This document shows positions 6,033 through 25,467 of a stretch of DNA of 64,000 nucleotides, piece after piece. A program made the translations under genes and the position numbers. Under the pieces are notes generated by a model, which saw only the letters and a list, made by a program, of their open reading frames with translations, had not been told where the DNA came from and searched no databases. Numbering within the stretch: the stretch's first letter is position 1; each line of letters starts with the position of its first letter. The stretch spans positions 124,001 through 188,000 of the forward strand of contig NZ_JAVHUY010000001.1 of the NCBI RefSeq assembly GCF_031085175.1, written 5' to 3'. Origin of the DNA: Phytohabitans maris (GTDB lineage: Bacteria > Actinomycetota > Actinomycetes > Mycobacteriales > Micromonosporaceae).

Positions 6033-6139
6033 GGCCCGATGGTGGTCGGGGCGGGAAGCCCGCACGGTTGATGGACGGTGAATTCCCGGTGAATGGATGG
6101 GCGGGATACGCCGCGGGGACGGTGTTCGGCGCCGGTCCC

Positions 6140-6211: not shown

Positions 6212-6943
6212 GTGATTCGAGTCCGAGCCACCCTCGCCACCTTGTCCGCCGTCGCCGTCACCGCCCTCACCGCGGTCGCGTTTCCGGCACCCGCCGCGGC
6301 GGCGCCGCTCGGCACCGTGCGGCTCTCGGCGGCCAAAGGCACCGTCGACCAGTCGCCGATCTTCGCCACCGCGTCCGCCTCGAAGCCCTGCCCGGACGGG
6401 TACGGCAGCGACGCGCAGGTGCGGATCGGACCGCCCGGCGGCCCGTACCAGAACGTCGCCACGCCGCTGCGCGATGGCGGGTACGACAAGAAGGCGGTCT
6501 CGGTCAAGCCCAACCGCTCCTTCAGCCGGGCCATCGGCGGCGCGCCGGCCGACGGCGAGTGGTGGGTCGTGGTGGAGTGCTACAGCCTGACGCGGGGCCA
6601 GCACCCCGACCGGTTCATCACCCCGCTCACCGTCGCCGGGCGGGAGTGGAAGGTGGGCCAGCCGGCCGGCGGCGCCTCCCTGGACTCACCGCCCCCGCCG
6701 GAGCCGACCGTACCGATCAACGCTCCCTCCGGCCCGGCCACGCCCACCGCCGGCGCGCCGGAGGCCGGTACGCCGGACCCGGCGACCACCGCGCCGGCGG
6801 TCCCCGACCCCGAGCTCGCGAGCAACGACCGGTCCGGCTCCGCCTCGCCGCTGGCGAGCGCGATGTGGGTCGGCGGGGTGGTAGTGGTGCTCGGAATCGT
6901 CGGCGCGGTCGCTTTGTTGACCCGTCGGCGCCGCGCGAACTGA
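6212..6943 (+). CDS. secreted and anchored protein with a repeated surface module
   Basis: A protein of 243 residues, GTG start, nearly leaderless. Signal peptide 1-31, then a module of about 110 residues (LGTVRLSAAKGTVDQSPIF to LTVAGREWKV) with two conserved Cys (KPCPDGYG and VVECYSLT) and the core GPPGGPYQN and PNRS. A Pro/Thr/Ala-rich stalk (about 155-210) leads to a C-terminal helix (VGGVVVVLGIVGAVALL) and RRRR tail. The end resembles a sorting signal, but LAxTG itself is missing (PLASAM), so it may simply be membrane-anchored. The same module opens the proteins at 15824 and 19695. It precedes the pst operon and is driven by the PHO-box promoter. Molecular role unknown. Confidence 0.75.
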   Translation: MIRVRATLATLSAVAVTALTAVAFPAPAAAAPLGTVRLSAAKGTVDQSPIFATASASKPCPDGYGSDAQVRIGPPGGPYQNVATPLRDGGYDKKAVSVKPNRSFSRAIGGAPADGEWWVVVECYSLTRGQHPDRFITPLTVAGREWKVGQPAGGASLDSPPPPEPTVPINAPSGPATPTAGAPEAGTPDPATTAPAVPDPELASNDRSGSASPLASAMWVGGVVVVLGIVGAVALLTRRRRAN

Positions 6944-7085
6944 CCGTTCGGACGGGGCCCGGCGACGAACGTCTACAAATATATAAGCGTCAATGAAAGA
7001 AATCGTCGAAATCATGACGAAGCAGTTCCTGGCCATGCATTCGTCCGGCCGCCCTATCCGAACGGTGGATACGCCCTTACCCGCT

Positions 7086-7118
7086 GTTCACCTCTTGCAT
7101 GTCCGGCGTGAGTCTACG
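7086..7118 (+). promoter_or_regulatory. PHO-box-like triple repeat upstream of the pst operon
   Basis: GTTCACCTCTT, GCATGTCCGGC and GTGAGTCTACG follow each other in 11-nt units. Units one and two closely match those at 6140 (GTTCACCTsTT, then GnnnGTCyGGC). The site lies about 105 nt before the start at 7224. The rest of the 280-nt gap (6944-7223) shows an AT-rich patch at 6975-7010 and no gene. Confidence 0.6.
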
Positions 7119-7223
7119 GCTGCGCGCGCGGACATCGTCCGTCACGAGGCTGATCCCACTGATCGAGCGCGTTGGGGAGCGCGGTCAGCCATGCGCACCA
7201 AAGTGCGCATTGCGGAAGGGACA

Positions 7224-7673
7224 ATGGTGCAGCATTCACGGTTCGTGTTTCTCGCCGCGCCGATGCCCGAGTCGAAGGACGGCGACGGGGCCGAAGGCAT
7301 TCTCTGGATGCTGGTTTCGCCGAACAACCGCCCGCTTGGTCGCGGCACCACCTACCACGAGACGTACGGCTCCTGCCGCCAGGCGGTCCTGGACCTCCAG
7401 GCCAACTGCGAGCGGGTCAAGCCGGTCGAGACGACGGTCGAACTGACCGGCCAGTGGTCGTGGCGGATCGAGCTGGACGGAGAGCCGGTGGCGGTGTCCA
7501 GCCGGTCGTACCTGCGGGCCCGGGAGTGTTCGTACAACCTCGAGCGCTTTCTGGAGGCGGTGCCGAAGGCCGAGGTCGTCGCCGGCACCCGGAGCGTCCG
7601 GCGCGGGCGGCGGCGGGCGGGCGTCGTCGACCCACCACCGCGACCCAACCGAGAGCTTCGGAACGCGGGCTGA
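7224..7673 (+). CDS. DUF1508-like small protein heading the pst operon
   Basis: A protein of 149 residues from ATG 7224, chosen because GGAAGGG lies 6 nt upstream; the frame is open from 6993. FVFLAAPMPE, WMLVSPNNRPLGRG and a second half WSWRIELDGEPVAVSSRSYLRARECSYNLERFLEAV form two copies of a beta-beta-alpha unit like the DUF1508/YegP fold. The C-terminus is basic (RRGRRRAG). No signal peptide is seen, so it is cytosolic. Its TGA overlaps the pstC ATG by one base, so it is co-translated with the transporter. Function unknown. Confidence 0.65.
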   Translation: MVQHSRFVFLAAPMPESKDGDGAEGILWMLVSPNNRPLGRGTTYHETYGSCRQAVLDLQANCERVKPVETTVELTGQWSWRIELDGEPVAVSSRSYLRARECSYNLERFLEAVPKAEVVAGTRSVRRGRRRAGVVDPPPRPNRELRNAG

Positions 7674-8731
7674 TGACCGTAACGTCGACCGACCCACCAG
7701 CCACGAACGTACCGTCCACACCGGAGGGTCCACCGGACCGCCCACGCCGGATCCGCGAGCGCCGGGCGCTGTCGGACCTGCTGTTCCGGGGCGTCGCGCG
7801 CGCCGGCGGTACGGCGGTCCTCGCGATCATGCTGCTGGTCGGGATCTTCCTGACCCGGGACGCGTTGCCCGCGTGGCGGGAGGCCGGCCTCGGCTTCCTC
7901 ACCACCCAGGCGTGGGACCCGCAGGGCGGCGACTTCGGCGTCGCGGGCGTCCTCGTCGGTACGGTGCTCATCGGCATGGTGGCGATCAGCGTCGCGGTCC
8001 CGCTCGCCTTCGGCGCCTCGCTCTACATCTCGGAGTACGCCCCGAACCGGCTCAAGCCGCTGCTCGTCAACCTGGTCGACCTGATGGCGGCGGTGCCGAG
8101 CGTGGTGTACGGCATCTGGGGCCTGTTCCTGCTCCAGCCGAAGATCCTCGTCGTGGGCGAGCAGGGCGACGGCCTGCCCCGGTGGCTGGCCACCTACTTC
8201 GGCTGGATCCCGCTCTTCCAGGTGGACGACTACGACCCGCGCGACCCGCTGGCGAGCCCGACGTCGCTGACCGCGTCGACGTTCGTCGCCGGCCTCGTCG
8301 TGGCGATGATGGTGACCCCGATCATCGCGTCGATCATGCGGGAGGTCTTCTCGCAGGCCCCGCTCGGCGAGCGCGAGGGGGCGTACGCGCTCGGCGCCAC
8401 CAAGTGGGGGATGATCCGCTCGGTCGTGCTGCCGTTCGGCCGGGGCGGCATGGTCGGCGGGACGATGCTCGGGCTGGGCCGGGCGCTCGGCGAGACGATC
8501 GGGGTCTACCTGGTCGTCTCCGTGGTCTTCGTGATCCAGCCACACATCCTGCAGAACGGCGGCGGCTCGATCTCCGCGCTGATCGCGCTCCGGTACGCGG
8601 AGGACCTCGGCGTCGGCTTCGCCGCGCTGATGGCCGCCGGCCTCGTGCTCTTCGGCGTCACGCTGATCGTCAACTTCGGCGCCGGCATCATCATCAACCG
8701 CAGCCGCTCGGGCGCGGCGAGCGAGGTGTAG
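7673..8731 (+). CDS. pstC: phosphate-type ABC transporter permease PstC
   Basis: An inner-membrane permease of 352 residues with a Pro-rich cytosolic N-terminus (about 1-45) and six predicted helices. The EAA loop that contacts the ATPase is clear: EGAYALGATKWGMIRSVVLP. AAVPSVVYGIWGLF and GETIGVYLVV are typical of PstC. Reading starts at ATG 7673, overlapping the upstream stop by one base, and the longer open frame upstream is not coding. It pairs with PstA directly downstream and with PstB at 18547. Confidence 0.95.
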   Translation: MTVTSTDPPATNVPSTPEGPPDRPRRIRERRALSDLLFRGVARAGGTAVLAIMLLVGIFLTRDALPAWREAGLGFLTTQAWDPQGGDFGVAGVLVGTVLIGMVAISVAVPLAFGASLYISEYAPNRLKPLLVNLVDLMAAVPSVVYGIWGLFLLQPKILVVGEQGDGLPRWLATYFGWIPLFQVDDYDPRDPLASPTSLTASTFVAGLVVAMMVTPIIASIMREVFSQAPLGEREGAYALGATKWGMIRSVVLPFGRGGMVGGTMLGLGRALGETIGVYLVVSVVFVIQPHILQNGGGSISALIALRYAEDLGVGFAALMAAGLVLFGVTLIVNFGAGIIINRSRSGAASEV

Positions 8732-8734
8732 GCG

Positions 8735-9994
8735 ATGACGACCGAGGTGCGGCCCGCGGTGACCACCGAGCCGGCCGAGACCACGCTGCCCCGGGCCACC
8801 GTCGAGCCGGCGGCCCCGGAGGCGCGGCGTACGACGGGCACCACCCGCCGGACCGACGTGTTCGCGCTCCTCGGCGCGGCGGCGTCCGCGGTCAGCCTGG
8901 CCGCGGTGCTCTTCACCCAGCTCACGCCCTTCGACGGCGTACTCGGCTTCGTCGTCGTGTCGTACGTGCTGTTTCTCGCCTTCTACGCGCTGCTGGTCTC
9001 GCTCGACGAGTCCGGGCCGGCGGTGCGCGACCGGCTGGCCGGGGTCGTGATCCACAGCCTCGCGTTCCTGATGCTGCTCGCCCTCGTGGTGGTCCTGGTC
9101 TTCACCTTCGTACGGGGGCGGGAGGCGCTGTCCCACCCCAACTTCTACTACGAAGACATGCAGGCCGCCGGGCCGTTGCAGCCCCTCGACGTCGGGGGCG
9201 TGCGGCACGCGATGATCGGCACGCTGGAGCAGATCGGCATCGCCTTGGCGATCACCCTGCCGCTCGGCGTGATCGGCGCGGTCTTCCTCAGCGAGCTTCC
9301 CGGGCCGTACAGCCGGTTTGTGCGGACGATCGTGGAGGCGATGACCGCGCTGCCGTCCATTGTGGCCGGTCTCTTCGTGTACGGCACGATCATCCTCGCC
9401 CTCGGCGTCCCCCTCTCCGGCCTGGCCGGCTCGATCGCGCTGAGCGTGATGATGCTGCCGATCATCATCCGCGCCGCGGACGTCGTGATCAGGCTGGTGC
9501 CGGGGTCGCTCCGCGAGGCGTCGCTGGCCCTCGGCGCCTCGCAGTGGCGCACGATCTGGCACGTCGTGCTGCCGACCGCGCGCTCCGGCATCACCACCGC
9601 GGTCATCCTGGGCACCGCGCGAGGCATCGGTGAGACCTCGCCCGTGCTGCTGACCGTCGGCGCCACCGCGGTCACCAACCTCAACCCGATCGACAACCCG
9701 CAGATGTCGTTGCCGCTGGTGACGTTCCAGCTGGTGCGCACGCCGTCCGACACGATGATCGCCCGCGGCTTCGGCGCGGCGGCCGTGCTGATGATCCTCG
9801 TGCTCTTCCTGTTCGTACTGGCCCGTCTCATCGGCGGTCGGATCCCGGGGCAGCTCAGCCGCGGCCAGCGGCGCCGCCGGGCACACGCCTCCCGCCGGGA
9901 CGCGCGGCGGTTCGCCGCCCGCGAGCGCGCCCGCCGGGCGTTGGCGACCCAGACCGATGGCATCGCAACGACCGACAGTAGGGAACTGAGCTGA
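8735..9994 (+). CDS. pstA: phosphate-type ABC transporter permease PstA
   Basis: A permease of 419 residues, longer than usual PstA (about 280-300). The extra length is an N-terminal part (about 1-100) with two added hydrophobic segments (VFALLGAAASAVSLAAVLF, VVSYVLFLAFYALLV) and a basic C-terminal tail. The canonical PstA core has PLGVIGAVFLSELPG, ALPSIVAGLFVYG and the EAA loop EASLALGASQWRTIWHVVLP. It starts 3 nt after pstC and overlaps pstS by one base. Confidence 0.95.
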   Translation: MTTEVRPAVTTEPAETTLPRATVEPAAPEARRTTGTTRRTDVFALLGAAASAVSLAAVLFTQLTPFDGVLGFVVVSYVLFLAFYALLVSLDESGPAVRDRLAGVVIHSLAFLMLLALVVVLVFTFVRGREALSHPNFYYEDMQAAGPLQPLDVGGVRHAMIGTLEQIGIALAITLPLGVIGAVFLSELPGPYSRFVRTIVEAMTALPSIVAGLFVYGTIILALGVPLSGLAGSIALSVMMLPIIIRAADVVIRLVPGSLREASLALGASQWRTIWHVVLPTARSGITTAVILGTARGIGETSPVLLTVGATAVTNLNPIDNPQMSLPLVTFQLVRTPSDTMIARGFGAAAVLMILVLFLFVLARLIGGRIPGQLSRGQRRRRAHASRRDARRFAARERARRALATQTDGIATTDSRELS

Positions 9995-11661
9995 TGACCA
10001 GAGAGTGGACCGGCGTGACCCACCGCCTGGCCCGCGCCGTCGCCGCTGTCCTCGCGGCGATGCTGGTGTTCCTCGCCGGGCCGCCCGCGCCGGCGTCAGC
10101 GGCGCCGAGAAAGGTACCGATCAACGGCGCGGGTTCGACCTGGAGTTCCAACGCGATCGAAAACTGGCGGCGCAACGTCGGGCGGAGCATCACGGTCAAC
10201 TACAACGCGAGCGGCTCGACCGACGGCCGTAACCGCTACAAGCAGGGGACCGTCGACTTCGGTGTGTCCGAGATCCCGTACGGCATGACGGACCGATTCG
10301 CCGGCACCGACCCGCCCCCCACGCGCACGTACGCGTACATGCCGATCGTGGCCGGCGGCACGGCCTTCATGTACAACCTGCGGATCGGCGGGCGCCGCGT
10401 CACCAACCTCCGGCTCTCCGGCGAGGTGGTCGCGAAGATCTTCACCGGCGTCATCAAGCGATGGAACGACCCGGCGATCGTGGCGGACAACCCGGGGCTC
10501 ACCATGCCGGCGCGCGCCATCGTGCCGGTCGTGCGCCAGGACGGCTCCGGCACCAGCGCGCAGTTCACGCTCTGGATGAGCAAGGAGCACGGGTCGATCT
10601 GGGACGCGTACTGCCGGAAGTTCAACAAACCCGCGCCGTGCGGCCTCACCTCGCAGTACCCGTACCGGCCGAACGAGGGCTTCATCGGCCAGACCGGCTC
10701 CAACGGCGTCTCCGGCTACGTCTCGCAGAGCAACGCCGAGGGCGCCATCACCTACGTCGAGTACTCGTACGCGCGGAACTCGCGCTTTCCGGTGGCGAAG
10801 GTGCTGAACCGGGCCGGGTACTACACCGAGCCGACCGCCTCCAACGTGGCGGTCGCGCTGACCAAGGCCCGGATCAACACCAACCAGCGCAGTGCGGGCT
10901 ACCTGACCCAGATCCTCGACGACGTGTACCGCTTCGACGACCCGCGGACGTACCCGCTGTCGTCGTACTCGTACATGATCATCCCGGTCGACCGGGTCGA
11001 CGTGGGCAGCATGACCCTCGACAAGGGATACACGCTGGGCCTGTTCGCCTACTACTTCCTCTGCGAGGGGCAGCAGCAGGCCGACGTCCTGGGCTACTCG
11101 CCACTGCCGAAGAACCTCGTGGAAGCCGGGTTGAACCAGGTGCGCCGGATCCCCGGCGCCGAGCAGCGAGACATCAACGTCGCGGGCTGCAACAACCCGA
11201 CGTTCCGGGGTGGTCGCAACGTCCTGCTCGAAAACGCCGCGCGCCCGCCGGCCTGCGACAAGAAGGGGTCGACGCAAAACCCGAAGGCCACCGGCGGCGC
11301 TCCCGAGGACACCCCGGTCAAGGCCTCGGCCAGGTGTGCGTCGAGCGGCGGCGGCAACAACACCGCCGACAACGGCGGGGCAAACACCAGCGGGCCCAGC
11401 GGCTCGCCCACGACCGGCCCGCCGGCCAGCGCCGCGCCGGTCGACCCGGACACCGGCCTGCCCGCGGGTGACGAGGGCGCGGGTGCCGGCGACGGCGAGC
11501 AGGTCGCGGCCGTACCCGTGTCGCTCGACGGCGAAGGCGGCTGGCGCTTGCGGCACACGATCATGGTGATCGCCGCGCTGCTCTTCCTCGGCCTGATCCT
11601 CGGTCCGCCGCTGCTCGCCAACGCGCTGCGCGGCCGCCGCGACCCCGGGGGGCAGGGATGA
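9994..11661 (+). CDS. pstS: PstS-like solute-binding protein, membrane-tethered
   Basis: A protein of 555 residues: signal peptide 1-37, type II binding domain about 38-400, a low-complexity Gly/Ser/Pro linker, then a C-terminal helix (TIMVIAALLFLGLILGPPLL) and basic tail. Ligand motifs are GAGSTW (45-50), NASGSTDGRN, DFGVSEIPYG and RQDGSGTSAQF (181-191). The PstS Asp that accepts the phosphate proton is normally in a 'SD' pair; here it is Glu 93 ('SE'). It is anchored by a C-terminal helix rather than a lipobox. The stop overlaps the next ATG (ATGA). The ligand is probably phosphate or another oxyanion. Confidence 0.88.
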   Translation: MTREWTGVTHRLARAVAAVLAAMLVFLAGPPAPASAAPRKVPINGAGSTWSSNAIENWRRNVGRSITVNYNASGSTDGRNRYKQGTVDFGVSEIPYGMTDRFAGTDPPPTRTYAYMPIVAGGTAFMYNLRIGGRRVTNLRLSGEVVAKIFTGVIKRWNDPAIVADNPGLTMPARAIVPVVRQDGSGTSAQFTLWMSKEHGSIWDAYCRKFNKPAPCGLTSQYPYRPNEGFIGQTGSNGVSGYVSQSNAEGAITYVEYSYARNSRFPVAKVLNRAGYYTEPTASNVAVALTKARINTNQRSAGYLTQILDDVYRFDDPRTYPLSSYSYMIIPVDRVDVGSMTLDKGYTLGLFAYYFLCEGQQQADVLGYSPLPKNLVEAGLNQVRRIPGAEQRDINVAGCNNPTFRGGRNVLLENAARPPACDKKGSTQNPKATGGAPEDTPVKASARCASSGGGNNTADNGGANTSGPSGSPTTGPPASAAPVDPDTGLPAGDEGAGAGDGEQVAAVPVSLDGEGGWRLRHTIMVIAALLFLGLILGPPLLANALRGRRDPGGQG

Positions 11662-14276
11662 GCCGCCGGACGGTCGCCGGGTTCCTGGTGGCGCTCACCG
11701 CCGCCAGCCTGCTCTTCGTCGTGGACCCGGGCGCCGATCCCGCGCGCGGTGCCGCCGAGGACGGCGGCGGGGGTGGCGGCAACGGCGGCTCGTCGGTGAC
11801 CGTGCACGGCACCAAGCAGGGGTTCGAGGACTTCACGGGGCTCGCGGTCACCGTGTCGAAGACGAGGAACCTGACGAACGAAGCGATCACCGTGACCTGG
11901 ACGGGAGCCCGGCCCTCGCCGCTCGGTTACCCCGGCACGGACTTCCTCTCGCTCATGCAGTGCTGGGGAAGCCCGGAGGCGAAGGACTTCCGCGAGACCT
12001 GCGCGTACGGGATGGATCTCGACGTGCCCGAGCGTCCCGGCGGCGCGGTGGCCATCGACGCCGGGCGGCGCCGCGTGGCCGACACGCCTTACGCGGCGGG
12101 CTACCCGGCTCCCGACCCGGACGAGAGCCCGGAGAAGACCGGGCTGGCGGCGGGCGCCAAGATGGTGCCGTTCAAGACGGTGACGGGCGAGCGCTCCCGG
12201 GACGGCAGCCCCGGCCAACCGTTCGGCACGAAGCCGAACCCGTCGGGCGGTCCTGACCTCGAAGAGACAGATGTCGACGTCATGACCCGGTATCTGGCCA
12301 AGGAGACCACCAACGAGTACCCGTACGCGTTGACCGCGGCCGACGGCACCGGCCGGGTCACCTTCGAGGTACAGAACGACCGGCTCGCCCCGCACCTCGG
12401 CTGTGGGGCGCCGTACCAGGCTCCGGACGGCCAGCAGAAGCCACGCCCGTGCTACCTGGTGATCGTCCCGAGGGGATACCACCACCCGTACACCGGCGTG
12501 GATGTCACCAACGACTCCAACCCGGCCGTGAGCGGCTCCCCGTTCAAGCCGGTCGTCTGGCAGCACCGGATGGTCGTACCGCTGGAGTTCGCGCCCGTGG
12601 AGGGGGGCTGCTCGCTCGACAAGGCGGAGCGGCGTACCGCGGGCGCCGAGGCCGTGGCCGAGGCGGTGACCTCCTGGCAGCCCGTGCTCTGCGCCAACGA
12701 CGGCCCGATCTACGGCTACTCCGCGATCAGTGACTTCGAGGCGGCCCAGCAGGTCGTCAGCGCTTCGGAAAGCGCGCCCGGCCTGGTCTACAGCGCGGAT
12801 CCGGTGGTCTCCAGCAACCCGCCGGTCGTGCACGCGCCGGTCACGCTGAGCAGCACCGTGATCGCCGTCAACATCGACTACAACATCATCCTCCCGAACC
12901 ACGTCAGCGGCCCGCCGACTCCGCCGGAGATCGAGCGGCTGCGCGGGCTGGCCCTGACCGATCTGAAGCTGACGCCGCGGCTGCTGGCCAAGGTGCTCAC
13001 CCAGAGCTACACCCGCGACGACATCACCGACAAGGAGCGCGACCAGACCGCCGGCAACCCGGAGAGCATCCGCTACGACGAGGAGTTCCTGACCCTCAAC
13101 CCGGTCTTCCGGCACTGGCCCCGGGAGCGGGCCGTGACGCTGGACGGCCTGATGGTCTCGGTCGGCAGTTCGGTGGCCGCACGTGAGGTCTGGCAGTGGA
13201 TCCTGGGCGACGCCGAGGCGAGGACGTGGATCCAGGGCAAGAACCCCGACGAGAACGGCATGTGGGTCAACCCCGTCTACAAAGACATGTTCAGCACCGC
13301 GCCGGACACGTTTCCGAAGGCCGATCCGGACTGCCACGAGGAGGAGCGCTTCGAACCCATCCAGGGGGCGAACGTCACGTTTCCCCTTTGCACGCTCGAC
13401 AAATGGCCGTACATGGGCTCGATGAACGAGGCGGCGCTACAGACCCTACGGGCCCAGACGAAGGGCAAGGACCTGCCGCTTCGCCCGGTACCGAACACCA
13501 CCGACAACACCCCGTGCTGCCGCTACTCCGACCTGCCCCGGAAGTTTCCGGGCTCCCGGTTCGTCATGTCGGTCACCGACTCGGCGTCGGCCGCCCGGTA
13601 CGGGCTCTTCACCGCCCAGCTCTGCAAGCCCAAACGCGACTCGCTCGGCAAGCTGGTGATGCCGGACGACTGCCGGACGCCGACCGACGAGGCGGTGAAC
13701 GCCGCCGCCGCGACCGCGGTCGGCAGCCAGGTGGAAGGCGTGAAGGTCGTCGATCCGGTCAAGGCGTGGGCGACGCAAGGGGCGTACCCGTTGACGACCG
13801 TGTCGTACGCGATCGCCGACACCAGCGAGCCGGTCGAGGCCCGGCGCGAGTACGCGAAGCTGCTGCGGTACGCCGCCGGCTCGGGCCAGGACCCGGGTGA
13901 GGCGTGGGGCCAGCTGCCGGAGGGCTACGTCCCGCTGCCGGCCGCGCTGCGGGAGCAGACGATGATCGCCGCCAGCCAGCTGGAAAACTGGGTGACGCCC
14001 ACATCGCCACCGGCGGACAACTCCGGCGGACCCGACCCCGGTGCGGCGCCGGCGCCCACCGACGGAGTACCCAGCGGCGGTGCCACCCCGTCGGCCGGTA
14101 CCCCGGCGCCCGGCCCCCCGCCGTCGGCCGCTCCCGCCGCGCAGTCGCAGTCGACGCTCGGCAGTCCACTAGGGATCATCCGGTTCATTCTGATCGCCGC
14201 CTTGGTCATGGGATTGCTCGGCGGCATCGCCGGTCCGATCATGCAGCGATTCGCGATCCGGTCCGGCAGAAAATGA
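11658..14276 (+). CDS. giant solute-binding-like protein with C-terminal anchor
   Basis: An exported protein of 872 residues: N-terminal signal segment (VAGFLVALTAASLLFVV), a large extracellular region, a Pro/Ala/Ser stalk about 775-835 and a C-terminal helix (IIRFILIAALVMGLLGGIAG). Pieces such as GLVYSADPVVSSNPPVVHAP, TVIAVNIDYN and PLTTVSYAIA recall PstS-type binding proteins, but the protein is about twice the usual size. It carries many Cys (for example LMQCWGSP, ADPDCHEEE, TPCCRYSD), suggesting disulfides. It is translationally coupled to pstS, so it should work with the transporter. I recognise no named family; binding-protein fold is an inference. Confidence 0.7.
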   Translation: MSRRTVAGFLVALTAASLLFVVDPGADPARGAAEDGGGGGGNGGSSVTVHGTKQGFEDFTGLAVTVSKTRNLTNEAITVTWTGARPSPLGYPGTDFLSLMQCWGSPEAKDFRETCAYGMDLDVPERPGGAVAIDAGRRRVADTPYAAGYPAPDPDESPEKTGLAAGAKMVPFKTVTGERSRDGSPGQPFGTKPNPSGGPDLEETDVDVMTRYLAKETTNEYPYALTAADGTGRVTFEVQNDRLAPHLGCGAPYQAPDGQQKPRPCYLVIVPRGYHHPYTGVDVTNDSNPAVSGSPFKPVVWQHRMVVPLEFAPVEGGCSLDKAERRTAGAEAVAEAVTSWQPVLCANDGPIYGYSAISDFEAAQQVVSASESAPGLVYSADPVVSSNPPVVHAPVTLSSTVIAVNIDYNIILPNHVSGPPTPPEIERLRGLALTDLKLTPRLLAKVLTQSYTRDDITDKERDQTAGNPESIRYDEEFLTLNPVFRHWPRERAVTLDGLMVSVGSSVAAREVWQWILGDAEARTWIQGKNPDENGMWVNPVYKDMFSTAPDTFPKADPDCHEEERFEPIQGANVTFPLCTLDKWPYMGSMNEAALQTLRAQTKGKDLPLRPVPNTTDNTPCCRYSDLPRKFPGSRFVMSVTDSASAARYGLFTAQLCKPKRDSLGKLVMPDDCRTPTDEAVNAAAATAVGSQVEGVKVVDPVKAWATQGAYPLTTVSYAIADTSEPVEARREYAKLLRYAAGSGQDPGEAWGQLPEGYVPLPAALREQTMIAASQLENWVTPTSPPADNSGGPDPGAAPAPTDGVPSGGATPSAGTPAPGPPPSAAPAAQSQSTLGSPLGIIRFILIAALVMGLLGGIAGPIMQRFAIRSGRK

Positions 14277-14511: not shown

Positions 14512-15720
14512 ATGAAGGTCAAGACCATCGGCAGAGCGGCGGTGATGGGCATCGGCACCATCGTCGCGCTGGCTGTGGCGGCCACCCCGGCCGTCGCAGA
14601 CCCGGACCCGGCCACCGAGTTCCGCCAGCTGGCCGGTGTCGGCTCGGACACCACCCAGGACCTCGGCAACGGTCTCGGCGAAGCGCTCGGCGCCGGTGAC
14701 GTCGTCGCCTCGTGGGACGCCCGTCCGCCGGCCGGCGCGACCACCACCATCAAGACGAAGGCGAGCGGCTGCTCGTTCCAGCGGCCCAACGGCTCCGGCC
14801 AGGGTCGCCAGGCGCTGCGCGCGTCCGAGGGCGAGGACCTCGACGGTGCCGGCCCCGGCACCGCCGGCCAGTTCCCGGCCGCCACCGGTGTGAACATCCA
14901 GGGCTGCGTCGACTTCGCCCGCTCGTCGAGCTACGGCGGCGGCAGCACCCCGTCGGCCAGCGGCCCGTACACCTACATCCCGGCGGGCGTGGACGCGGTG
15001 ACGCTGGCCGTCCACGAGAACGGCGACCTGCCGTTCCAGTGGTCGTTCGCGCAGATCCAGCGGGTCTACAAGTGCTTCGACACCGCGGTCGCGGGCAACG
15101 CGGTCGTGCCGCGGATGATCCAGACCGGCTCGGGCACCTGGGAGTTCTGGATCCAGCCGGCTCGCATGGCGATCACCGAGAACGAGATCAACGCGGGCGA
15201 CTACCCCTGCCTGGCGGTGGACAACGACAACAACATCACCACCCCCGCCATCCCGGTGCACGCCCGGGTGCAGGAGCACGACGGTACGGTCCTGAACGGC
15301 AACCCGACCCACGTCATCCCGTTCTCGGCCGGGCAGTACGTCGCCCAGAGCAACCACGAGGTGATCGAGGACGTGCTGGCGCCGGTGACCGTCGCCGACC
15401 GTCGCGGCTTCGCCCACCCGGTCGCGGTCAGCACCACCACCGTTCCCAACACGGAGCCGGTCGTCGGCGGCGTGCTGAACGTCAACTTCCCGGCTCCCTT
15501 CCGCCGGGACGTCTACAACGTGGTGCCCACGGCTGACCTGTCGAACCCGACCATCGCCAGCACGTTCGTCGGTACCGGCTCCGCGGTGTGCAGCGACACG
15601 GTGACGGTCAACGGCCAGCAGCGGCGGGTCATCGAGCTGTTCGGCTTCGGCTACCGCGGCACGTTCTCCAGCCCGCTGGAGGCGAACTGCGGCTACACCA
15701 GCCTCCGGTTCACCAGCTGA
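14512..15720 (+). CDS. secreted PstS-family solute-binding protein
   Basis: A protein of 402 residues with a clean signal peptide (MKVKTIGRAAVMGIGTIVAL to TPAVA). Motifs of the PstS-like binding fold are VGSDTTQDLGNGL, GSGQGRQAL, CVDFARSSSY, YIPAGVDAVTLAV, QIQRVYKC and GSGTWEFW. There is no lipobox and no C-terminal helix, so it is soluble outside the membrane or held by a partner. ATG 14512 was chosen because GAAAGGGAG lies at the right distance; the open frame upstream (from 14326) is non-coding in character. It is the third binding-protein-like gene in the operon region. Confidence 0.8.
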   Translation: MKVKTIGRAAVMGIGTIVALAVAATPAVADPDPATEFRQLAGVGSDTTQDLGNGLGEALGAGDVVASWDARPPAGATTTIKTKASGCSFQRPNGSGQGRQALRASEGEDLDGAGPGTAGQFPAATGVNIQGCVDFARSSSYGGGSTPSASGPYTYIPAGVDAVTLAVHENGDLPFQWSFAQIQRVYKCFDTAVAGNAVVPRMIQTGSGTWEFWIQPARMAITENEINAGDYPCLAVDNDNNITTPAIPVHARVQEHDGTVLNGNPTHVIPFSAGQYVAQSNHEVIEDVLAPVTVADRRGFAHPVAVSTTTVPNTEPVVGGVLNVNFPAPFRRDVYNVVPTADLSNPTIASTFVGTGSAVCSDTVTVNGQQRRVIELFGFGYRGTFSSPLEANCGYTSLRFTS

Positions 15721-15823: not shown

Positions 15824-17515
15824 ATGAGTAGGCAACGGCGTCGCAGCTGGTTCGCGCTGGCGTTGGCGGCTCTGCTGTCCAGCGGTGTGTTGGCGACCGG
15901 TGTCGTCCTGGCGTTCGCCGCTCCGGCACAGGCGGCCTCGCTCGGCGCTGTCACGATCACGCCGACCAACGGCACGGTCGACGCCAGCCCGATGTTTACG
16001 TCGGCGACGTCGTCGGCGGCGTGCCCGAGTACGTTCGGGGAGAACGCGGGTCTGCGGGTGGGTCCGGTTGGTGGTCCGTATCAGAACTTGGGCCGTCCGT
16101 TGGGCGGGGGCGGGTATGACCAGGCTCCGGTGACGATTGCGCCGAACCGGTCGTTGGCGCAGGCGTTGGGTGTTACGACGGTTACGCCGGGCAGCTACCT
16201 GATCATCATCGAGTGTTTCAGCCTGACCGCGGGCCGGCACGCCGACGAGTTCCAGCTCCCCATCGTGGTCTGCGACGGCGCGACCTGGACGACGGAAGCG
16301 GCCTGTGGGGGCGCCGCGGCGACGACCACGACCCTCACCGCCGATCCCTCCGACGATGTGCCGGTGGGCACGCCCGTCACCTTGACCGCCACCGTCAGCC
16401 CGGCGTCGGCCGCCGGCACCGTCCAGTTCCGGCGGAAGGTCAAGGACACGACGGATTCGGTGAACATCGGCGAGCCGGTGACCGTGGACGCCAACGGCAA
16501 GGCGACGCTGCCGGACGCCGATCTCCCCCTGCCCAGCGGCAACAAGGTGCAGTACCTGGTCTCCGCCGCCTTCGCTCCCACCGACGCGAACGCGTTCCTG
16601 GCTTCGACATCCGGCGAGGTTGAGGTCACCATCTTCCGCGGGGGCACACCAACGGAGACCGAACTGACCGTCACGCCGGAGAGCCCGGCGCCGTCCGGCG
16701 CCAAAATCGTGCTGTCCGCCGCGGTGCTCAGCAACACCGAGGAGCAGCTCGCCGGCTCGGTGAAGTTCGCCTGGCGCCCGGAGACCGCGGGCTCGGCCGA
16801 GACGGCCATCGGTACGGTGCCACTCACCGCGGGGTCGGCGCAGGCCGAGGTCTCCGGACTCGCCGACGGCCGGTACATATTCACGGCCAGCTTCGTCCCG
16901 ACGGACCCGGTCGCGATCGCTGGATCGGACGACCTCACCGAGGTGTACGTGATCGGCGAGGCACCGGCCGGGGCGGCCGACACGACGACGACGCTGGTGC
17001 CGAACCCGACCTCGCCGCAGGCGCAAGGTACGGACGTGACGCTGACCGCCACGGTCGCTCCGAACACCGCCGCCGGCACCGTGCGGTTCATGGACGGTGC
17101 CACGCAGATCGGCACCGACCAGGCGGTCGCGAACGGCGTCGCCAGCGTGAGCACGAGCGCCCTGTCGGTCGGCAGCCATACGCTGACCGCCGTCTTCACA
17201 CCGACCGACGCCAACGCCTTCAAGGCGTCGACCTCCACCGCCCTGACGTACCAGATCACCGGTGACGGTGATGGAGATGGTGACGGGGATGGTGACGGGG
17301 ATGGCGACGGGGACGGCGATGGAGATGGCGACGGCGACGGAGATGGTGACGGGGACGGCGGCGGTGGGGGATCGCTGGCCAGCACCGGTACGCCGCTCAT
17401 CGCGATCGGCGCCTCGGGCCTCGCGCTGATCGGCGTGGGCACGGGCGCGATGCTCCTGACCCGCCGCCGGCGCCCCGAGCCGCAGCCGGTGAGCTGGCCG
17501 GACGAGACCGAATGA
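15824..17515 (+). CDS. LAxTG-anchored Ig-like surface protein
   Basis: A protein of 563 residues. Signal peptide 1-37; the repeated module of about 110 residues (about 38-148, with AACPSTFGENAGLRVGP and IIECFSLTAGRH); three Ig-like repeats (about 160-265, 275-385 and 390-478; typical ends FAPTDANAFLAST and FTPTDANAFKAST); a (Gly-Asp)16 stalk 480-511; then a full cell-wall sorting signal: LASTG (518-522), hydrophobic helix and RRRR. LAxTG is the motif of class E sortases. The next gene is a sortase homologue and overlaps by 4 nt. The protein should project from the wall. The module DNA at 16118-16260 is almost identical to that in the gene at 19695. Confidence 0.88.
   Translation: MSRQRRRSWFALALAALLSSGVLATGVVLAFAAPAQAASLGAVTITPTNGTVDASPMFTSATSSAACPSTFGENAGLRVGPVGGPYQNLGRPLGGGGYDQAPVTIAPNRSLAQALGVTTVTPGSYLIIIECFSLTAGRHADEFQLPIVVCDGATWTTEAACGGAAATTTTLTADPSDDVPVGTPVTLTATVSPASAAGTVQFRRKVKDTTDSVNIGEPVTVDANGKATLPDADLPLPSGNKVQYLVSAAFAPTDANAFLASTSGEVEVTIFRGGTPTETELTVTPESPAPSGAKIVLSAAVLSNTEEQLAGSVKFAWRPETAGSAETAIGTVPLTAGSAQAEVSGLADGRYIFTASFVPTDPVAIAGSDDLTEVYVIGEAPAGAADTTTTLVPNPTSPQAQGTDVTLTATVAPNTAAGTVRFMDGATQIGTDQAVANGVASVSTSALSVGSHTLTAVFTPTDANAFKASTSTALTYQITGDGDGDGDGDGDGDGDGDGDGDGDGDGDGDGDGGGGGSLASTGTPLIAIGASGLALIGVGTGAMLLTRRRRPEPQPVSWPDETE
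16118..16260 (+). repeat. near-identical module segment (copy 1 of 2; copy 2 at 19974-20116)
   Basis: Over 143 nt the genes at 15824 and 19695 differ by one silent base at 16199, while flanking module sequence differs at many third positions. Both copies use T- and G-ending codons (GTT, GGT, TTG) that are uncommon nearby. This indicates recent gene conversion or duplication. Confidence 0.8.
17261..17356 (+). repeat. imperfect hexanucleotide repeat coding (Gly-Asp)16
   Basis: Sixteen copies of GGN-GAY encode the stalk just before the LASTG signal. Third positions vary between copies. The run could gain or lose units by slippage without shifting frame. Alternating Gly-Asp could bind calcium or act as a flexible acidic spacer through the wall. 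Confidence 0.9.
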
Positions 17516-18522
17516 CCGTCACGATGGACCAGCCGCCGGCCGCGAGCCCGCCTCGCGAGCCGGCGGCGCCGGTCCCGCCGCCTTCCGCGCCCGCCCCGTC
17601 ACCCCAGCCGGCGCCGGCGCCACCACCGCGGCCCGGGTCCGCCCCGATCCGGTTGGCGCTCCAGGTGCCGGGCATCGCGCTGAGCATCCTCGCCGCGGTG
17701 GCACTCGGCTTCGTCGTGCACCTGACGCTGCTGTCCCAGGTGCAGTACGAGCGCAACCAGCAGACCGCGTACGCGGACTTCCGGGCCGAGCTCGCCCGGG
17801 GCACGGCGCCGGTGGGGCAGACCCGGGTGGAGTTCGCGGACGGCGCCGAGGAGGGCACCGAGCGCCTCGTCGAGCCCGGGTCGGCCGTGGCCGTGCTCCG
17901 GATCCCGGCGATCGGCCTGCGCACCGTCGTCTTCGAAGGGACCAGCGGCGAGGTGCTCCAGCAGGGCCCGGGGCACCGCCGGGACAGCGTGCTGCCCGGG
18001 CAGGCCGGCACCGCCGTCGTGATGGGGCGGCGGGCGTCGTACGGCGGGCCGTTTCGCGACCTGGACCTGCTGCTGCCCGGCGACCGGATCACCGTGACGA
18101 CCGGCCAGGGCGAGCACGAGTACCGGGTGCTCGGGCTCCGCTACCCCGGCGAGCCCGCCCCGGCACCGCTGGCCGAGGGGAAGGGGCGGATGACGCTGGT
18201 CACCGCCGACGGCGATCCGTTCGTGCCACGGGACATCCTGCGCGTCGACGCCGAGCTGACCAGCCCGACGCAGCTGGCACCGGCGCGCAAGTTCACCGCC
18301 GCGTCGCTGCCGCCCGCCGAGGCCGCGCTGGCCACCGACCCGGCCGCCTGGACGCCGCTCATGCTCTGGAGCCAGGGGTTGCTGCTCGCCACGCTCGCGA
18401 TCACCTACCTGCGGGCCCGCTGGGGCGGCTGGCAGGCGTGGATCGTCGGCGCGCCGGTCCTGCTCGCTTTCGGGCTGGCCATCGCCGACCAGGCCGCGCG
18501 GCTGCTGCCCAACCTCCTATAG
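17512..18522 (+). CDS. class E sortase homologue lacking catalytic Cys and His
   Basis: A membrane protein of 336 residues: Pro/Ala-rich cytosolic N-terminus 1-45, helix about 48-74, sortase-fold domain about 120-250, then two C-terminal helices (about 283-300 and 308-326). The class E signature is unmistakable: GPGH (153-156), LPGQAGTAVVMGRR, YGGPFRDLDLLLPGD. But the catalytic His of the usual GHR triplet is Arg 173 (GRR), and the catalytic Cys of the usual TLTTC is Ala 232 (TLVTA). Only a candidate Arg remains (Arg 240). It should be unable to transpeptidate and may be a pseudoenzyme that holds or presents surface proteins. It is coupled to the LASTG protein (ATGA overlap) and followed by pstB. 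Confidence 0.85.
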   Translation: MTVTMDQPPAASPPREPAAPVPPPSAPAPSPQPAPAPPPRPGSAPIRLALQVPGIALSILAAVALGFVVHLTLLSQVQYERNQQTAYADFRAELARGTAPVGQTRVEFADGAEEGTERLVEPGSAVAVLRIPAIGLRTVVFEGTSGEVLQQGPGHRRDSVLPGQAGTAVVMGRRASYGGPFRDLDLLLPGDRITVTTGQGEHEYRVLGLRYPGEPAPAPLAEGKGRMTLVTADGDPFVPRDILRVDAELTSPTQLAPARKFTAASLPPAEAALATDPAAWTPLMLWSQGLLLATLAITYLRARWGGWQAWIVGAPVLLAFGLAIADQAARLLPNLL

Positions 18523-18546: not shown

Positions 18547-19407
18547 GTGACCAAGCTCGACGACGCGACCATGGTCGACCTCGGCCCGCCGGTCGCCGGT
18601 ACGGCGCCGGTGCCCCGGCCCGCGGCCCACGGCCTGGCCAGCCTGGATGCGCGGTCGATCTCCGCTTGGTTCGGCGACCACAAGGTGCTCGACCGGGTCT
18701 CGCTGACCATGCCGGCGGGCAAGGTGACCGCGCTGATCGGACCCTCCGGCTGTGGCAAGTCGACGTTCCTGCGGATCCTCAACCGGATGCACGAGCTCGT
18801 ACCCAGCGCGTCGCTCGCCGGTGAGGTACTGCTCGACGGGCGCGACCTCTACTCGGCCGAGCGGCGCATCACGGACGCCCGCCGCCAGGTCGGCATGGTG
18901 TTTCAGAAGCCGAACCCGTTTCCGGCGATGTCCATCTACGACAACGTCGTGGCCGGGCTCAAGCTCACCGGTGTCAAGGTGTCCCGGAGCGGGCGGGACG
19001 ACCTGGTGGAGGAGACGCTGACCAAGGCCGGGCTCTGGAAAGAGGTCCGGGATCGGCTGCGCCAGCCCGGCGGCGCGCTCTCCGGCGGGCAGCAGCAGCG
19101 GCTCTGCATCGCGCGCTCGCTCGCGGTACGCCCCCGCGTGCTGCTGATGGACGAGCCGTGTTCGGCGCTCGACCCGACCTCCACGCGGCGCATCGAAGAG
19201 ACCATCGCCGAGCTTGTCCACGAGGTCACCATCGTCATCGTCACGCACAACATGCAGCAGGCCGCCCGCGTCTCGCACCTGTGCGCGTTCTTCCTCGCCT
19301 CGCAGGGAACGCCCGGCGTGATCGTGGAGCACGGCGCGACCTCGGCGATGTTCGACCATCCACAAGACCCTCGCACTGCCGACTATGTCCATGGCCGGTT
19401 CGGCTGA
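18547..19407 (+). CDS. pstB: phosphate-type ABC transporter ATPase PstB
   Basis: A protein of 286 residues from GTG 18547, with AGAAAGGA just upstream. Walker A GPSGCGKST (65-73), Q-loop VFQKPNPFPAMSIYDNV, signature LSGGQQQRL, Walker B VLLMDEP and switch His in VTHNMQQAARVS are all intact. FQKPNPFPMSIYDNV-like sequence is diagnostic of PstB. The first 30 residues are an extra Pro/Ala-rich tail. It is separated from pstCA by four surface-protein or binding-protein genes, an unusual order, and no phoU follows. Confidence 0.95.
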   Translation: MTKLDDATMVDLGPPVAGTAPVPRPAAHGLASLDARSISAWFGDHKVLDRVSLTMPAGKVTALIGPSGCGKSTFLRILNRMHELVPSASLAGEVLLDGRDLYSAERRITDARRQVGMVFQKPNPFPAMSIYDNVVAGLKLTGVKVSRSGRDDLVEETLTKAGLWKEVRDRLRQPGGALSGGQQQRLCIARSLAVRPRVLLMDEPCSALDPTSTRRIEETIAELVHEVTIVIVTHNMQQAARVSHLCAFFLASQGTPGVIVEHGATSAMFDHPQDPRTADYVHGRFG

Positions 19408-19694: not shown

Positions 19695-20903
19695 ATGAGC
19701 AAGCGCATGTTCGCTCGTGCGGGCGCGCTGCTTGGTGCCGCCGTCATGTCGGCGGGCGTACTCGTGGCGGTCGCGTCGCCCGCGCAGGCGGCGTCGCTGG
19801 GCGGGATCGACATCACGCCGGCGAACGGCACCGTGGACGCCAGCCCGATGTTCACGTCGGCGACGTCGTCGGCCCCGTGCCCGAGCACGTTCGGGGAGAA
19901 CGCGGGTCTGCGGGTCGGTCCGGTCGGTGGTCCGTACCAGAACCTGGGCCGTCCGCTGGGCGGGGGCGGGTACGACCAGGCTCCGGTGACGATTGCGCCG
20001 AACCGGTCGTTGGCGCAGGCGTTGGGTGTTACGACGGTTACGCCGGGCAGCTACTTGATCATCATCGAGTGTTTCAGCCTGACCGCGGGCCGGCACGCCG
20101 ACGAGTTCCAGCTCCCGATCGTCGTCGAGGGCACCAACTGGCGGGTCGACAGCGGGCCGGTGGCCGAGGACACCACCACCACGCTCGCCGTCTCCCCGGC
20201 GACCGTCGAGTCGGGCGCCGAGGTCACGCTGACCGCGACCGTCGCTCCGTCCACCGCTGAGGGCACCGTGCAGTTCCGCCGGGGCGCCAGCACCGTGATC
20301 GGCACCGCGCCGGTCGCCAGCGGTACCGCCACGCTGACCACCACGTCGCTGCCGATCGGGACCCACTCGATCACGGCGGTCTTCACGCCGGCCAACGCGT
20401 CGGCGTTCAACCCCTCCACCTCCTCGCCGCAGTCCGTCACGGTCGAGCTCGGCGACGGCCCGGCGGCGGCGCAGGAGATCGTCGCGGACATCACGCCGGG
20501 CGCGTTCAGCCTGGCGGTGGCCGGCAACAGCGCCGTCCTCGAGGGCGGCACCGTCGGTGGCACCGCGACCGGTGACCTGCAGACGGCCACGGTGACCGAC
20601 CTGCGCGGCAGCAACGCGGGCTGGGACCTGACCGGCCAGCTGGAGGACTTCAACACCACCCCGGCCACGACCGCGATCGGGGCCGCCAACCTGACCTGGG
20701 CGCCGACCGCGAGCAAGACCAGCGGTTCGGGTTCGGTCACGGCGGGTGCCGGTGCCGACCTCGGCGCCACCCGCACCCTCTGCACGGCCGCCGAGTCGAG
20801 CAGCGCCGGTGTGTTCGACTGCGGCGCCGGCCTGACGCTGTCGGTGCCGGACACCGCCGCGCCGGGCGGGTACGCCGCCACCCTGACCCTGACGCTGGCC
20901 TGA
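19695..20903 (+). CDS. secreted WxL-type surface protein
   Basis: A protein of 402 residues. Signal peptide 1-32; the repeated module about 33-145 (same Cys pair, PSTFGENAGLRVGP, IIIECFSLTAGRH); one Ig-like domain about 150-250 (TITLTATV-type strands, FTPANASAFNPST); and a C-terminal domain about 255-402. That last domain has TVTDLRGSNAGWDLTG and ends YAATLTLTLA, the pattern of WxL domains (first WxL as W-D-L; final strand normally TWTL). WxL domains bind peptidoglycan non-covalently, which fits the absence of a sorting signal or anchor. The next gene encodes a WxL-interacting DUF916 protein, as in known WxL operons of Firmicutes. Confidence 0.75.
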   Translation: MSKRMFARAGALLGAAVMSAGVLVAVASPAQAASLGGIDITPANGTVDASPMFTSATSSAPCPSTFGENAGLRVGPVGGPYQNLGRPLGGGGYDQAPVTIAPNRSLAQALGVTTVTPGSYLIIIECFSLTAGRHADEFQLPIVVEGTNWRVDSGPVAEDTTTTLAVSPATVESGAEVTLTATVAPSTAEGTVQFRRGASTVIGTAPVASGTATLTTTSLPIGTHSITAVFTPANASAFNPSTSSPQSVTVELGDGPAAAQEIVADITPGAFSLAVAGNSAVLEGGTVGGTATGDLQTATVTDLRGSNAGWDLTGQLEDFNTTPATTAIGAANLTWAPTASKTSGSGSVTAGAGADLGATRTLCTAAESSSAGVFDCGAGLTLSVPDTAAPGGYAATLTLTLA

Positions 20904-21014: not shown

Positions 21015-22490
21015 ATGACACCCGCCCGACCCGTCCGATCCCGGCTCGCCGCGCGCGCCGGGCTTCTGTTCGCTCTGCTGGCCGTGCTCCTCGCGGCGCA
21101 GCCGCCCGCCGCCGCGAGCGCCGCCCCCGCTGCTCCGGCGAAGGCGCCGACCGCGCCGGCCAAGGCGCCCGGGGACGACTTCAAGTGGAGCGTCGTACCG
21201 TCCAGCCCGACCGGCCCGACGGTGCGCAGCCGGTTCGAGTACGGGCTCAAACCGGGCGAGGAGGTGTCCGACTGGGTCGCCGTGAGCAACCTCGGCAAGA
21301 AGCCGCTGAAGGTGTCGGTGTACGGCACGGACGCGTTCAACGCCCCGGACGGTGGCTTCGCCCTGCTCCCCGCGAGCGAGCAGCCGAAGGACGTCGGGTC
21401 GTGGATCACGCTGCCCCGCAAGGACTACACGGTGCCGGTGGGCAAGCGGGTGGACATCCCGTTCAAGGTGAAGCTCCCCGCCAACGCCGAACCCGGCGAC
21501 CACATCGGCGGCCTGATCGCGTCGGCCACCGAGAGCACCACCAACGAGCAGGGTCAGCAGGTGAACGTCGAGCGCCGGATCGCGGCCCGCGTCTACCTCC
21601 GGGTCGACGGACCGGTCCAGCCGGCCGCGGAGATCACCCGAGTCGACGTCCAGTACGACAACCCGGCGGTCCCGTTCGGCGGCGGTGACATGACCGTCAC
21701 GTACCAGGTCGCGAACACCGGCAACGTGCGTTTCGGCGGCAAGGCGCGGATCGAGGTACGCGGACCGCTCGGCATCCGGGTCGCCAACAGCGAGGTGATC
21801 GACATCCCGGAGCTGCTGCCCGACTCGGAGATCCGGATCACCCGCAAGCTGGCGGGGGTCTTCCCGGCCGGGTGGCTCGACGCCCAGGTCACCGTCAACC
21901 CGCAGGTCGAAAACACGGCGCTCTCGCTGACCGAGTCCCGCTCGATGTGGGCGGTACCGTGGCTCCTCGTCGCGGTGCTCCTGCTCGTCGTGGGGCTGCT
22001 GCTGTTCTGGCTGCTCTGGCGGCGGCGTGCCCGGCGGTTGGCCGCGGCGGCCGGGCTGGACGGCTCCGCCGAGGCGGTGACGTTGGCCACGACGCCGCGC
22101 AGCCGTGCCGTGCTTCTGGTCGCGGCGGCGTTCGCGCTGCTCGGCGCGCCGGGCGCCGCGCCGGCCGGGGCGCCGGAAGGCATCGAACCCACCGCGAACG
22201 TGGAGATCGAGGTGTCGATCGCGCCAGCCTCCCCGACGGCCTCGCCGTCCCCGACGGCCTCGCCAAGCGCGTCGCCGACCGCGTCGCCGACCGCCTCGCC
22301 GAGCGAATCACCGAGCGAGTCGTCCAGCCCGTCGCCGAGCCCGACCGACGGGCCCAGCGGCGGCGGCGACGGCCTGGCCCGCACCGGGCTGGCGATCGGC
22401 GCGTTCGTCGCCGCCGGTGCCGCGCTCGTCGGCGGCGGAGCGGGCCTGCGCGTCCTCGGCCGGCGCCGGGGCGCCCCGAACGACCGGTGA
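21015..22490 (+). CDS. DUF916 (WxL-interacting type) protein with LARTG signal
   Basis: A protein of 491 residues. Signal peptide 1-40; DUF916-type domain about 55-200 (FEYGLKPGEEVSDWVAVSN, GDHIGGLIAS); a second beta-rich domain about 205-305 (DNPAVPFGGGDMTVTYQVANT); helix 312-335 and RRRARR. In known WxL-interacting proteins the chain ends here. This one continues with a second hydrophobic stretch that looks like a signal peptide (364-386), an Ala/Ser/Pro stalk 405-450, LARTG (454-458), another helix and RRR. It therefore looks like a fusion of a DUF916 protein with a small LAxTG-anchored protein. Its neighbour at 19695 is the likely WxL partner. Confidence 0.8.
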   Translation: MTPARPVRSRLAARAGLLFALLAVLLAAQPPAAASAAPAAPAKAPTAPAKAPGDDFKWSVVPSSPTGPTVRSRFEYGLKPGEEVSDWVAVSNLGKKPLKVSVYGTDAFNAPDGGFALLPASEQPKDVGSWITLPRKDYTVPVGKRVDIPFKVKLPANAEPGDHIGGLIASATESTTNEQGQQVNVERRIAARVYLRVDGPVQPAAEITRVDVQYDNPAVPFGGGDMTVTYQVANTGNVRFGGKARIEVRGPLGIRVANSEVIDIPELLPDSEIRITRKLAGVFPAGWLDAQVTVNPQVENTALSLTESRSMWAVPWLLVAVLLLVVGLLLFWLLWRRRARRLAAAAGLDGSAEAVTLATTPRSRAVLLVAAAFALLGAPGAAPAGAPEGIEPTANVEIEVSIAPASPTASPSPTASPSASPTASPTASPSESPSESSSPSPSPTDGPSGGGDGLARTGLAIGAFVAAGAALVGGGAGLRVLGRRRGAPNDR

Positions 22491-24952: not shown

Positions 24953-25210
24953 ATGACGGCGGCAATCAGCGCGAGCGAGGCTCGCAAGACCCTTTTCCCA
25001 CTCATCGAGCGGGTCAACGAAGACCACACCCCCATCGAGATCGTCTCCAAGCGGGGCAATGCCGTGCTGGTCAGCAAGGAAGACTGGGACTCGATCATGG
25101 AGACCAACTACCTGCTCAGGTCTCCCGCCAACGCGCGGCGTCTGATGGAGAGTGTCGAGCAGTGGCGTGCCGGGCGTGCGACTGAGCGCGAGCCGGATGC
25201 CGGCGAGTGA
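24953..25210 (+). CDS. yefM: antitoxin of the YefM (Phd/YefM) family
   Basis: A protein of 85 residues with the family opening [19 protein letters not shown], then [24 protein letters not shown], which forms the dimeric DNA-binding fold. The C-terminal half ([17 protein letters not shown]) is the toxin-neutralising tail. It overlaps the toxin start by 4 nt, giving coupled translation, and it should repress its own promoter through the operator upstream. Confidence 0.93.
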
Positions 25211-25467
25211 AGCTGAGCTGGACCGATCACGCCTGGGACGACTACCTCTACTGGCAGACCCAGGACCGTAAGACCCTCAAGCGAATCAATACGCTGATCT
25301 CCGATATCAGACGAGACCCGGACGGGCCGGGCATCGGTAAACCCGAGATCCTCCGTAACAATCTCGCCGGCCTGCGCTCACGTCGCATCGACGATGAGCA
25401 CCGTCTGGTTTACGCGGTCGGGCCGGATGAAATCACGATCATCTCCTGCCGGTACCACTACGAGTGA
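25207..25467 (+). CDS. yoeB: YoeB-family mRNA interferase toxin
   Basis: A protein of 86 residues from GTG 25207. It cleaves mRNA in the ribosomal A site when free of YefM. The catalytic set known from E. coli YoeB is conserved: Glu 47, Arg 66 and His 84 in the ending CRYHYE. W-x4-DDYLYWQ at the N-terminus is also typical. The gene ends only 3 nt before the convergent ROK gene. Confidence 0.94.

Follow-up and report, generated by a model that had tools for sequence, protein, structure and literature searches.

We analysed a window of 64,000 nucleotides from the actinobacterium Phytohabitans maris (positions 124,001 to 188,000, forward strand, of contig NZ_JAVHUY010000001.1, assembly GCF_031085175.1). 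Sortases are known as transpeptidases. In this window a gene named here PSRT codes for a protein that has the fold of a sortase and none of its catalytic residues, amid the genes of a phosphate-type (Pst) importer of the ATP-binding cassette (ABC) family. The gene and the landmarks of its product, including transmembrane segments (TMs), are the following.

17512–18522, forward strand: pseudo-sortase gene (PSRT), 336 amino acids
17674–17730, forward strand: TM1 of PSRT, residues 55–73, from hydrophobicity
18028–18030, forward strand: codon of Arg 173, in place of the catalytic His, from alignment
18205–18207, forward strand: codon of Ala 232, in place of the catalytic Cys, from alignment and the solved Thermobifida fusca SrtE
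18235–18237, forward strand: codon of Ile 242, in place of the catalytic Arg, from alignment
18346–18498, forward strand: C-terminal TM pair, about residues 279–297 and 311–329, from hydrophobicity and a structure model
18502–18519, forward strand: C-terminal tail LLPNLL

The protein opens with a proline-rich N-terminus and TM1, followed by a long helix, the sortase-fold domain, the TM pair and the tail. All 20 rows of a PSRT alignment (A1) have the PN of this tail, which some more distant members lack. Its domain has the sortase beta-barrel fold and passes the Pfam Sortase model PF04203 (2.6e-15; 56.7 bits for a gathering score of 26.6). A first-pass annotation of this DNA had described a catalytically dead class E sortase with two extra C-terminal helices, and most of this description stands: the reading frame is exact, the helices are real, and the blocks GPGH (152–155), LPGQAG (161–166) and YGGPFRDLD (177–185) are intact. 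The catalytic triad is entirely replaced. Alignment with sortases that keep His and Cys (hereafter His/Cys sortases) places R173 at the catalytic His and A232 at the catalytic Cys, as had been read from the sequence, and the second assignment is backed by a solved T. fusca SrtE C222A mutant, which reads TLTTA at the Cys motif. At the position of the catalytic Arg, which all 38 His/Cys rows have, PSRT carries Ile 242. In one later alignment, ungapped in this region, the Cys falls one column further on, at Asp 233; PSRT is Cys-free under either register. An active site rebuilt from another Cys and His was considered and discarded: the protein has no Cys at all and His only at 70, 155 and 202, H155 being the His of the GPGH block, common to His/Cys sortases too.

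PSRT also stands apart from class E sortases such as SrtE1 of Streptomyces coelicolor and SrtE of T. fusca, with its missing triad, its TM pair, a shorter segment over the beta6/beta7 loop and its Pst partner. The class E Tyr of the beta3/beta4 loop, which follows GPG-x, is R156 in PSRT; this column holds Tyr in 30 of 38 His/Cys rows, as against Arg in 32, Leu in 13 and Val in 6 of 64 pseudo-sortase rows. On the NCBIfam class E model NF033747 the protein scores about 81.2–81.7 bits, below the curated cut-off of 160, and on the general sortase model 38.4 bits, below 39.35. The class E model matches each of the 20 A1 members, with the 81.7 bits of PSRT as the highest score, and the five His/Cys proteins tested on it score 166–248 bits. 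The T. fusca C222A mutants (9j0t, 9m2g) carry the same Cys-to-Ala change in the same motif; by contrast, theirs is engineered, in an otherwise active enzyme. Phage origin of PSRT was rejected after a PHROG search gave no match, and plasmid copies were set aside after a single weak match (48% identity across 26% of the query).

Homologues were gathered with the PSRT protein (41 relatives) or with a 20-row pseudo-sortase profile (121 genomes of the order, 148 of the class and 149 of the phylum), for a total of 459 genome searches over overlapping sets. Members turned up in 60 sampled genomes of 22 families, a few of them as fragments. Aligned by MAFFT, the homologues gave 106 distinct rows, those of a same genus not being independent; three of them, gapped at one of the scored positions, were set aside. 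Among the 103 that remained, 65 pair Arg or Lys at the His position with Ala, Ser, Val, Gly or Thr at the Cys position, 38 keep both His and Cys, and none is mixed. Every scored row lacking the catalytic His has Arg or Lys instead. Because only the best 30 matches of the order search became loci, a mixed form may exist among the weaker matches. Loss of the triad, with substitutions kept in orthologues, makes the protein a pseudo-sortase, as first proposed. At the Cys position of 64 pseudo-sortase rows Ala is commonest (41) and Ser comes second (19), which might evoke a cryptic enzyme using another nucleophile such as Ser; with Ala in the majority of rows, that of the window included, and the catalytic His and Arg gone, such an enzyme is very improbable.

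A tree of these 64 rows and the 38 His/Cys rows (102 rows, L105 excluded) was built without the columns at 173, 232 and 240. A single change suffices to explain the distribution of the catalytic residues in 98% of bootstraps. The branch separating the two groups has a Shimodaira–Hasegawa-like approximate likelihood ratio (SH-aLRT) value of only 60, and one pseudo-sortase row, L137, joins beside the His/Cys side. The ratio of nonsynonymous to synonymous substitution rates (dN/dS) of PSRT across five relatives is 0.16–0.46, similar to 0.19–0.39 for the binding protein SBP1 and 0.17–0.42 for PstA, both described below. These patterns are best explained by a catalysis lost once, long ago, in a protein retained under purifying selection. 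One relative, L105 (about 8826–9954), is broken across several frames beside pst genes, through decay or sequencing error. It is the single point in favour of PSRT being a decaying, functionless copy. As a general account this is refuted by the old single loss kept in 22 families, the dN/dS values and the recurrent partners, and we give it practically no weight; a recent decay private to this genome is rejected likewise on account of the conserved loss, the one-change tree and the dN/dS values. Three His/Cys sortases (L144, L141 and L145) have two C-terminal TMs in the PSRT layout and join, without resolved order, the base of the His/Cys side; the two that were tested both exceed the class E cut-off. 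They differ from PSRT by their intact His, Cys and Arg and by the absence of pstC, pstA and SBP1 from their loci (L166, L167, L169). Since they share the TM pair, this pair probably came first, with catalysis lost later.

The genes of the transporter surround PSRT on both sides.

7673–8731, forward strand: PstC-type permease (PF00528, linkage)
8735–9994, forward strand: PstA-type permease (PF00528, linkage)
9994–11661, forward strand: SBP1, PstS-type phosphate-binding protein with a linker and a C-terminal TM (PF12849, 9.6e-33; solved PstS, 1.6e-31)
11443–11457, forward strand: DPDTG motif in the SBP1 linker
11658–14276, forward strand: SBP2, with a beta-rich N-terminal region, a PstS-fold half and a C-terminal TM
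14512–15720, forward strand: SBP3, secreted, weakly PstS-like (hhalign, 78.6%)
18547–19407, forward strand: PstB-type ATPase of the linked transporter (TIGR00972, linkage)

As in PstSCAB, PstB and two BPD_transp_1 permeases, PstC and PstA, are present along with a PstS-type protein that keeps most phosphate ligands; the window system differs in that C-terminal TMs anchor its binding proteins, that it includes the pseudo-sortase and one more protein of PstS fold, and that it forms a paralogous set. PstB reaches 333.6 bits on TIGR00972, just short of the cut-off of 343.2. In SBP1, T49, S75, D88, R181, S185, G186 and T187 occupy positions which we take to be the phosphate ligands of PstS; relatives of SBP1 mostly keep them, R181 being His in 13 of 47. 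The N-terminal region of SBP2 (11751–12617, some 290 beta-rich residues) was hardly covered by the fold search. The genome holds two PSRT/Pst systems beside a housekeeping pst set. PstB of the second system (L041, on contig C69) is 82% identical to that of the window and the housekeeping PstB 54%, and the linked importer is a paralogue of the housekeeping phosphate transporter.

Linkage was scored in 57 distinct loci longer than 5 kb, several of which share a genus or a genome, leaving out L009 (a duplicate), L105 (broken) and L176 (a control). A PstB of the linked type (at least 395 bits) is present in 51 of them, and one or other of PstB, PstC and PstA in 54. Where at least 8 kb is available on both sides (39 loci), PstB is found in 38, SBP1 in 37, SBP2 in 32, PstA in 31, PstC in 27 and SBP3 in 19. 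By contrast, pstC, pstA and SBP1 are all missing from 25 control loci of sortases that keep the full set of His, Cys and Arg, where the only ABC ATPases are generic ones scoring no more than 81 bits. Presence in genomes tells the same story. Among the 148 genomes of the class, 28 have both PSRT and an SBP1-type protein, one PSRT only, three SBP1 only and 116 neither, in a count of PSRT that omits G161, G162 and G173, where the match ends before the C-terminus. Scores on the SBP1 profile are bimodal in this set: SBP1-type proteins reach at least 313 bits, a cut chosen after seeing the gap, and mostly extend past position 470 of 547; other PstS-like matches stay at or below 238 bits and mostly end near 380–390. 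G271 (178 bits over positions 230–544, on a contig with a piece of PSRT) was counted as SBP1-type. Each of the four exceptions is found at a contig break: three contigs start at the gene, and that of G206 ends about 2.3 kb past SBP2. As the three SBP1-only genomes showed no PSRT elsewhere either, these breaks explain the exceptions without proving the point. In the 41 relatives PSRT occurs in 15 and SBP1-type proteins in 14, the single discordant genome being 69% complete. Because several families (for example f28, f32, f33, f41 and f43) hold genomes with both genes and genomes with neither, the pair was probably gained or lost jointly more than once. These counts argue strongly that the recurrent partner of PSRT is a Pst-type transporter with an anchored binding protein, not an LASTG protein.

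A phosphate-type partner brings to mind a further role for the substituted residues. The former active site might have become a putative anion (phosphate) site made of R157, R173, R210 and R226, passing its ligand to the permease. The obligatory Arg or Lys at the His position and the frequency of R210 (54 of 64 pseudo-sortase rows) and R226 (55 of 64) would suit this idea; SBP1, however, already has the PstS ligands, and we hold it to be quite unlikely.

The LASTG protein is the gene immediately upstream.

15824–17515, forward strand: Big_3_5 surface protein with an LASTG signal, a lineage-specific neighbour, overlapping PSRT by 4 nucleotides
17375–17389, forward strand: LASTG sorting motif

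The first-pass annotation had noted this overlap, taken the LASTG protein as the expected substrate and imagined that PSRT binds LASTG/LPxTG signals uncleaved and so holds surface proteins at the transporter. The overlap is there, and in 12 of the 57 loci, 10 of them in the family of the window, PSRT overlaps or directly adjoins a gene that encodes an L[PA]xTG signal. Such a neighbour was not found in the other 45, two of which (L057 and L149) gave no upstream frame. An upstream signal gene in only 12 of 57 loci makes the association a matter of lineage and not a rule. An automatic scan for L[PA]xTG anywhere detects signals in 19 of the 57 pseudo-sortase loci, at least two of them spurious (L050 and L155, in opposite-strand frames) and one L048 match being SBP1 itself, as against 1 of 25 His/Cys loci. 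The losses of the class E Tyr and of the catalytic Arg speak against such a trap; moreover the genome has other sortases, three of which, aligned at the active site, keep His and Cys and could process LASTG. Capture of surface proteins through their sorting signals is unlikely, and of the tethering once suggested it is the strong link to the transporter that survives.

The role that we consider probable, from comparison of sequences, is that PSRT, with its three TMs, assists a dedicated Pst-type ABC importer as an accessory subunit without enzymatic activity. Its extracytoplasmic sortase-fold domain would be a docking or tethering module, keeping the membrane-anchored phosphate-binding proteins, SBP1 and probably SBP2, at the permease, uncut. 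Most speculatively, contact would be made through a membrane-proximal [DN]PxTG motif in the SBP1 linker, resembling a sorting motif placed too far from the membrane and out of reach of cleavage. That the domain grips an xPxTG-like linker which it cannot cut, a sorting enzyme having become the tether of a nutrient receptor, is a tentative idea, attractive but unproven. It stems from the frequency of [DN]PxTG, found in 25 of 48 SBP1 linkers for 1.2 expected from shuffles, a test that ignores shared descent, and in none of 39 SBP2 linkers. PxTG alone is present in 33 of the 48 for 10.1 expected; this set omits rows without a detected C-terminal TM (one SBP1, three SBP2) and identical linkers. Outside the motif the SBP1 linker aligns poorly.

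Much has to be set against these proposals, beginning with that neglect of shared descent. The strict motif is absent from 23 of 48 linkers, it has Asp or Asn where known signals have Leu, and in 24 of the 25 linkers that have it, it precedes the TM by 27–59 residues. In SrtE1, Tyr229 and Arg329 contact the signal (PMC5148588); their counterparts are gone from PSRT, Tyr128 of T. fusca being presumed equivalent to Tyr229. As pseudo-sortases also have fewer residues in the segment over the beta6/beta7 loop (median 24, against 33 in His/Cys sortases), xPxTG peptides may not bind in the old groove. With these groove determinants lost, PSRT might be a scaffold only, its fold and three TMs stabilising or assembling the complex of PstC, PstA and binding proteins by way of surfaces outside the groove, with no relation to the PxTG-like motif. 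The positions conserved specifically in pseudo-sortases (157, 168–169, 196, 198–200, 210, 213, 226, 234, 239 and 246) are indeed spread over the domain, the TM pair and the tail are kept, and nearly half of the SBP1 proteins do without the motif. Such a scaffold, however, leaves both the motif excess and the kept GPGH/LPGQ/YGGPF framework unexplained; it is a serious possibility, to be held with reserve.

The importer-subunit role itself faces exceptions. No linked PstB is seen in 6 of the 57 loci, and none of PstB, PstC and PstA in three (L057, L148 and L149). PSRT is divergent from the pst genes, hence not in one operon with them, in L101–L104, L163 and L165. Two of the three SBP1-only genomes are 94% and 98% complete, so that PSRT may be truly absent there. 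Paralogues resembling SBP1 have no PSRT nearby in L201, L203 and L204. That of L201 (9661–11364, reverse strand), the third in its genome, carries an LAATG signal, a TM and a basic tail, and its 20 kb contains neither pst nor PSRT genes; it seems to use the wall route where others have the pseudo-sortase. Finally, a regulator or an assembly factor could show the same gene linkage as a subunit.

If the subunit role is correct, PSRT would clearly illustrate how the fold of an enzyme can be recruited into a transporter, and a gene that may well be annotated automatically as a sortase would gain a function. Counting PF04203 genes as active sortases would overcount them in these genomes. The survey also reveals that many actinobacteria have a second uptake system of the phosphate type, whose PstS proteins are anchored at the C-terminus. 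Among the open-licence papers listed by full-text searches, titles and abstract openings mention neither a family of sortase pseudoenzymes nor a link between sortases and Pst; two of these papers (PMC3516528 and PMC4806873) contain the words 'inactive sortase', and an earlier mention may exist. PMC5148588 contains neither the word inactive nor the word pseudo, and PMC7866108 does not contain the word sortase.

Four more genes lie close by.

6212–6943, forward strand: secreted protein of 243 residues whose N-terminus resembles, by eye, those of the 15824 and 19695 genes
6993–7673, forward strand: protein of 226 residues immediately before pstC, with homologues recurring near other copies of the cluster
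19695–20903, forward strand: Big_3_5 and WxL-like secreted protein (PF16640; PF13731 at 23.7 bits for a cut-off of 25)
21015–22490, forward strand: WxL-interacting-type protein with a C-terminal TM and LARTG (PF06030, 32 bits for a cut-off of 27.3)

A homologue of the 6993 protein shows sub-threshold similarity to DUF1508. The WxL surface clusters of Firmicutes are not known to contain such a transporter or a pseudo-sortase. The window shares with them the PF06030 protein, relatives of which are found in 24 of the 39 well-flanked loci; it differs in that its WxL domain is sub-threshold, and the one PF06030-like relative that was tested also falls below its cut-off. A direct repeat of 300 nucleotides, 88% identical (15891–16190 and 19747–20046), encodes the N-terminal region shared by two of the surface proteins and looks like the product of duplication or gene conversion. 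Upstream of the cluster, a divergent intergenic region holds a GTTCACC-like direct repeat with two mismatches (6077–6094, reverse strand), a possible PHO box. Matches of this kind number 8 over the window for 5.6 expected, not above chance, and 4 for 1.6 over the housekeeping pst stretch, so that a PHO box ahead of the cluster is a weak lead. Near the phosphate-type transporter lie also, both on the reverse strand, a phytase-like esterase (PF13449, 1058–3295) and a protein with VWA and solute-binding matches (3346–4983). A toxin–antitoxin pair of the Phd/YefM–YoeB type is found at 24953–25467.

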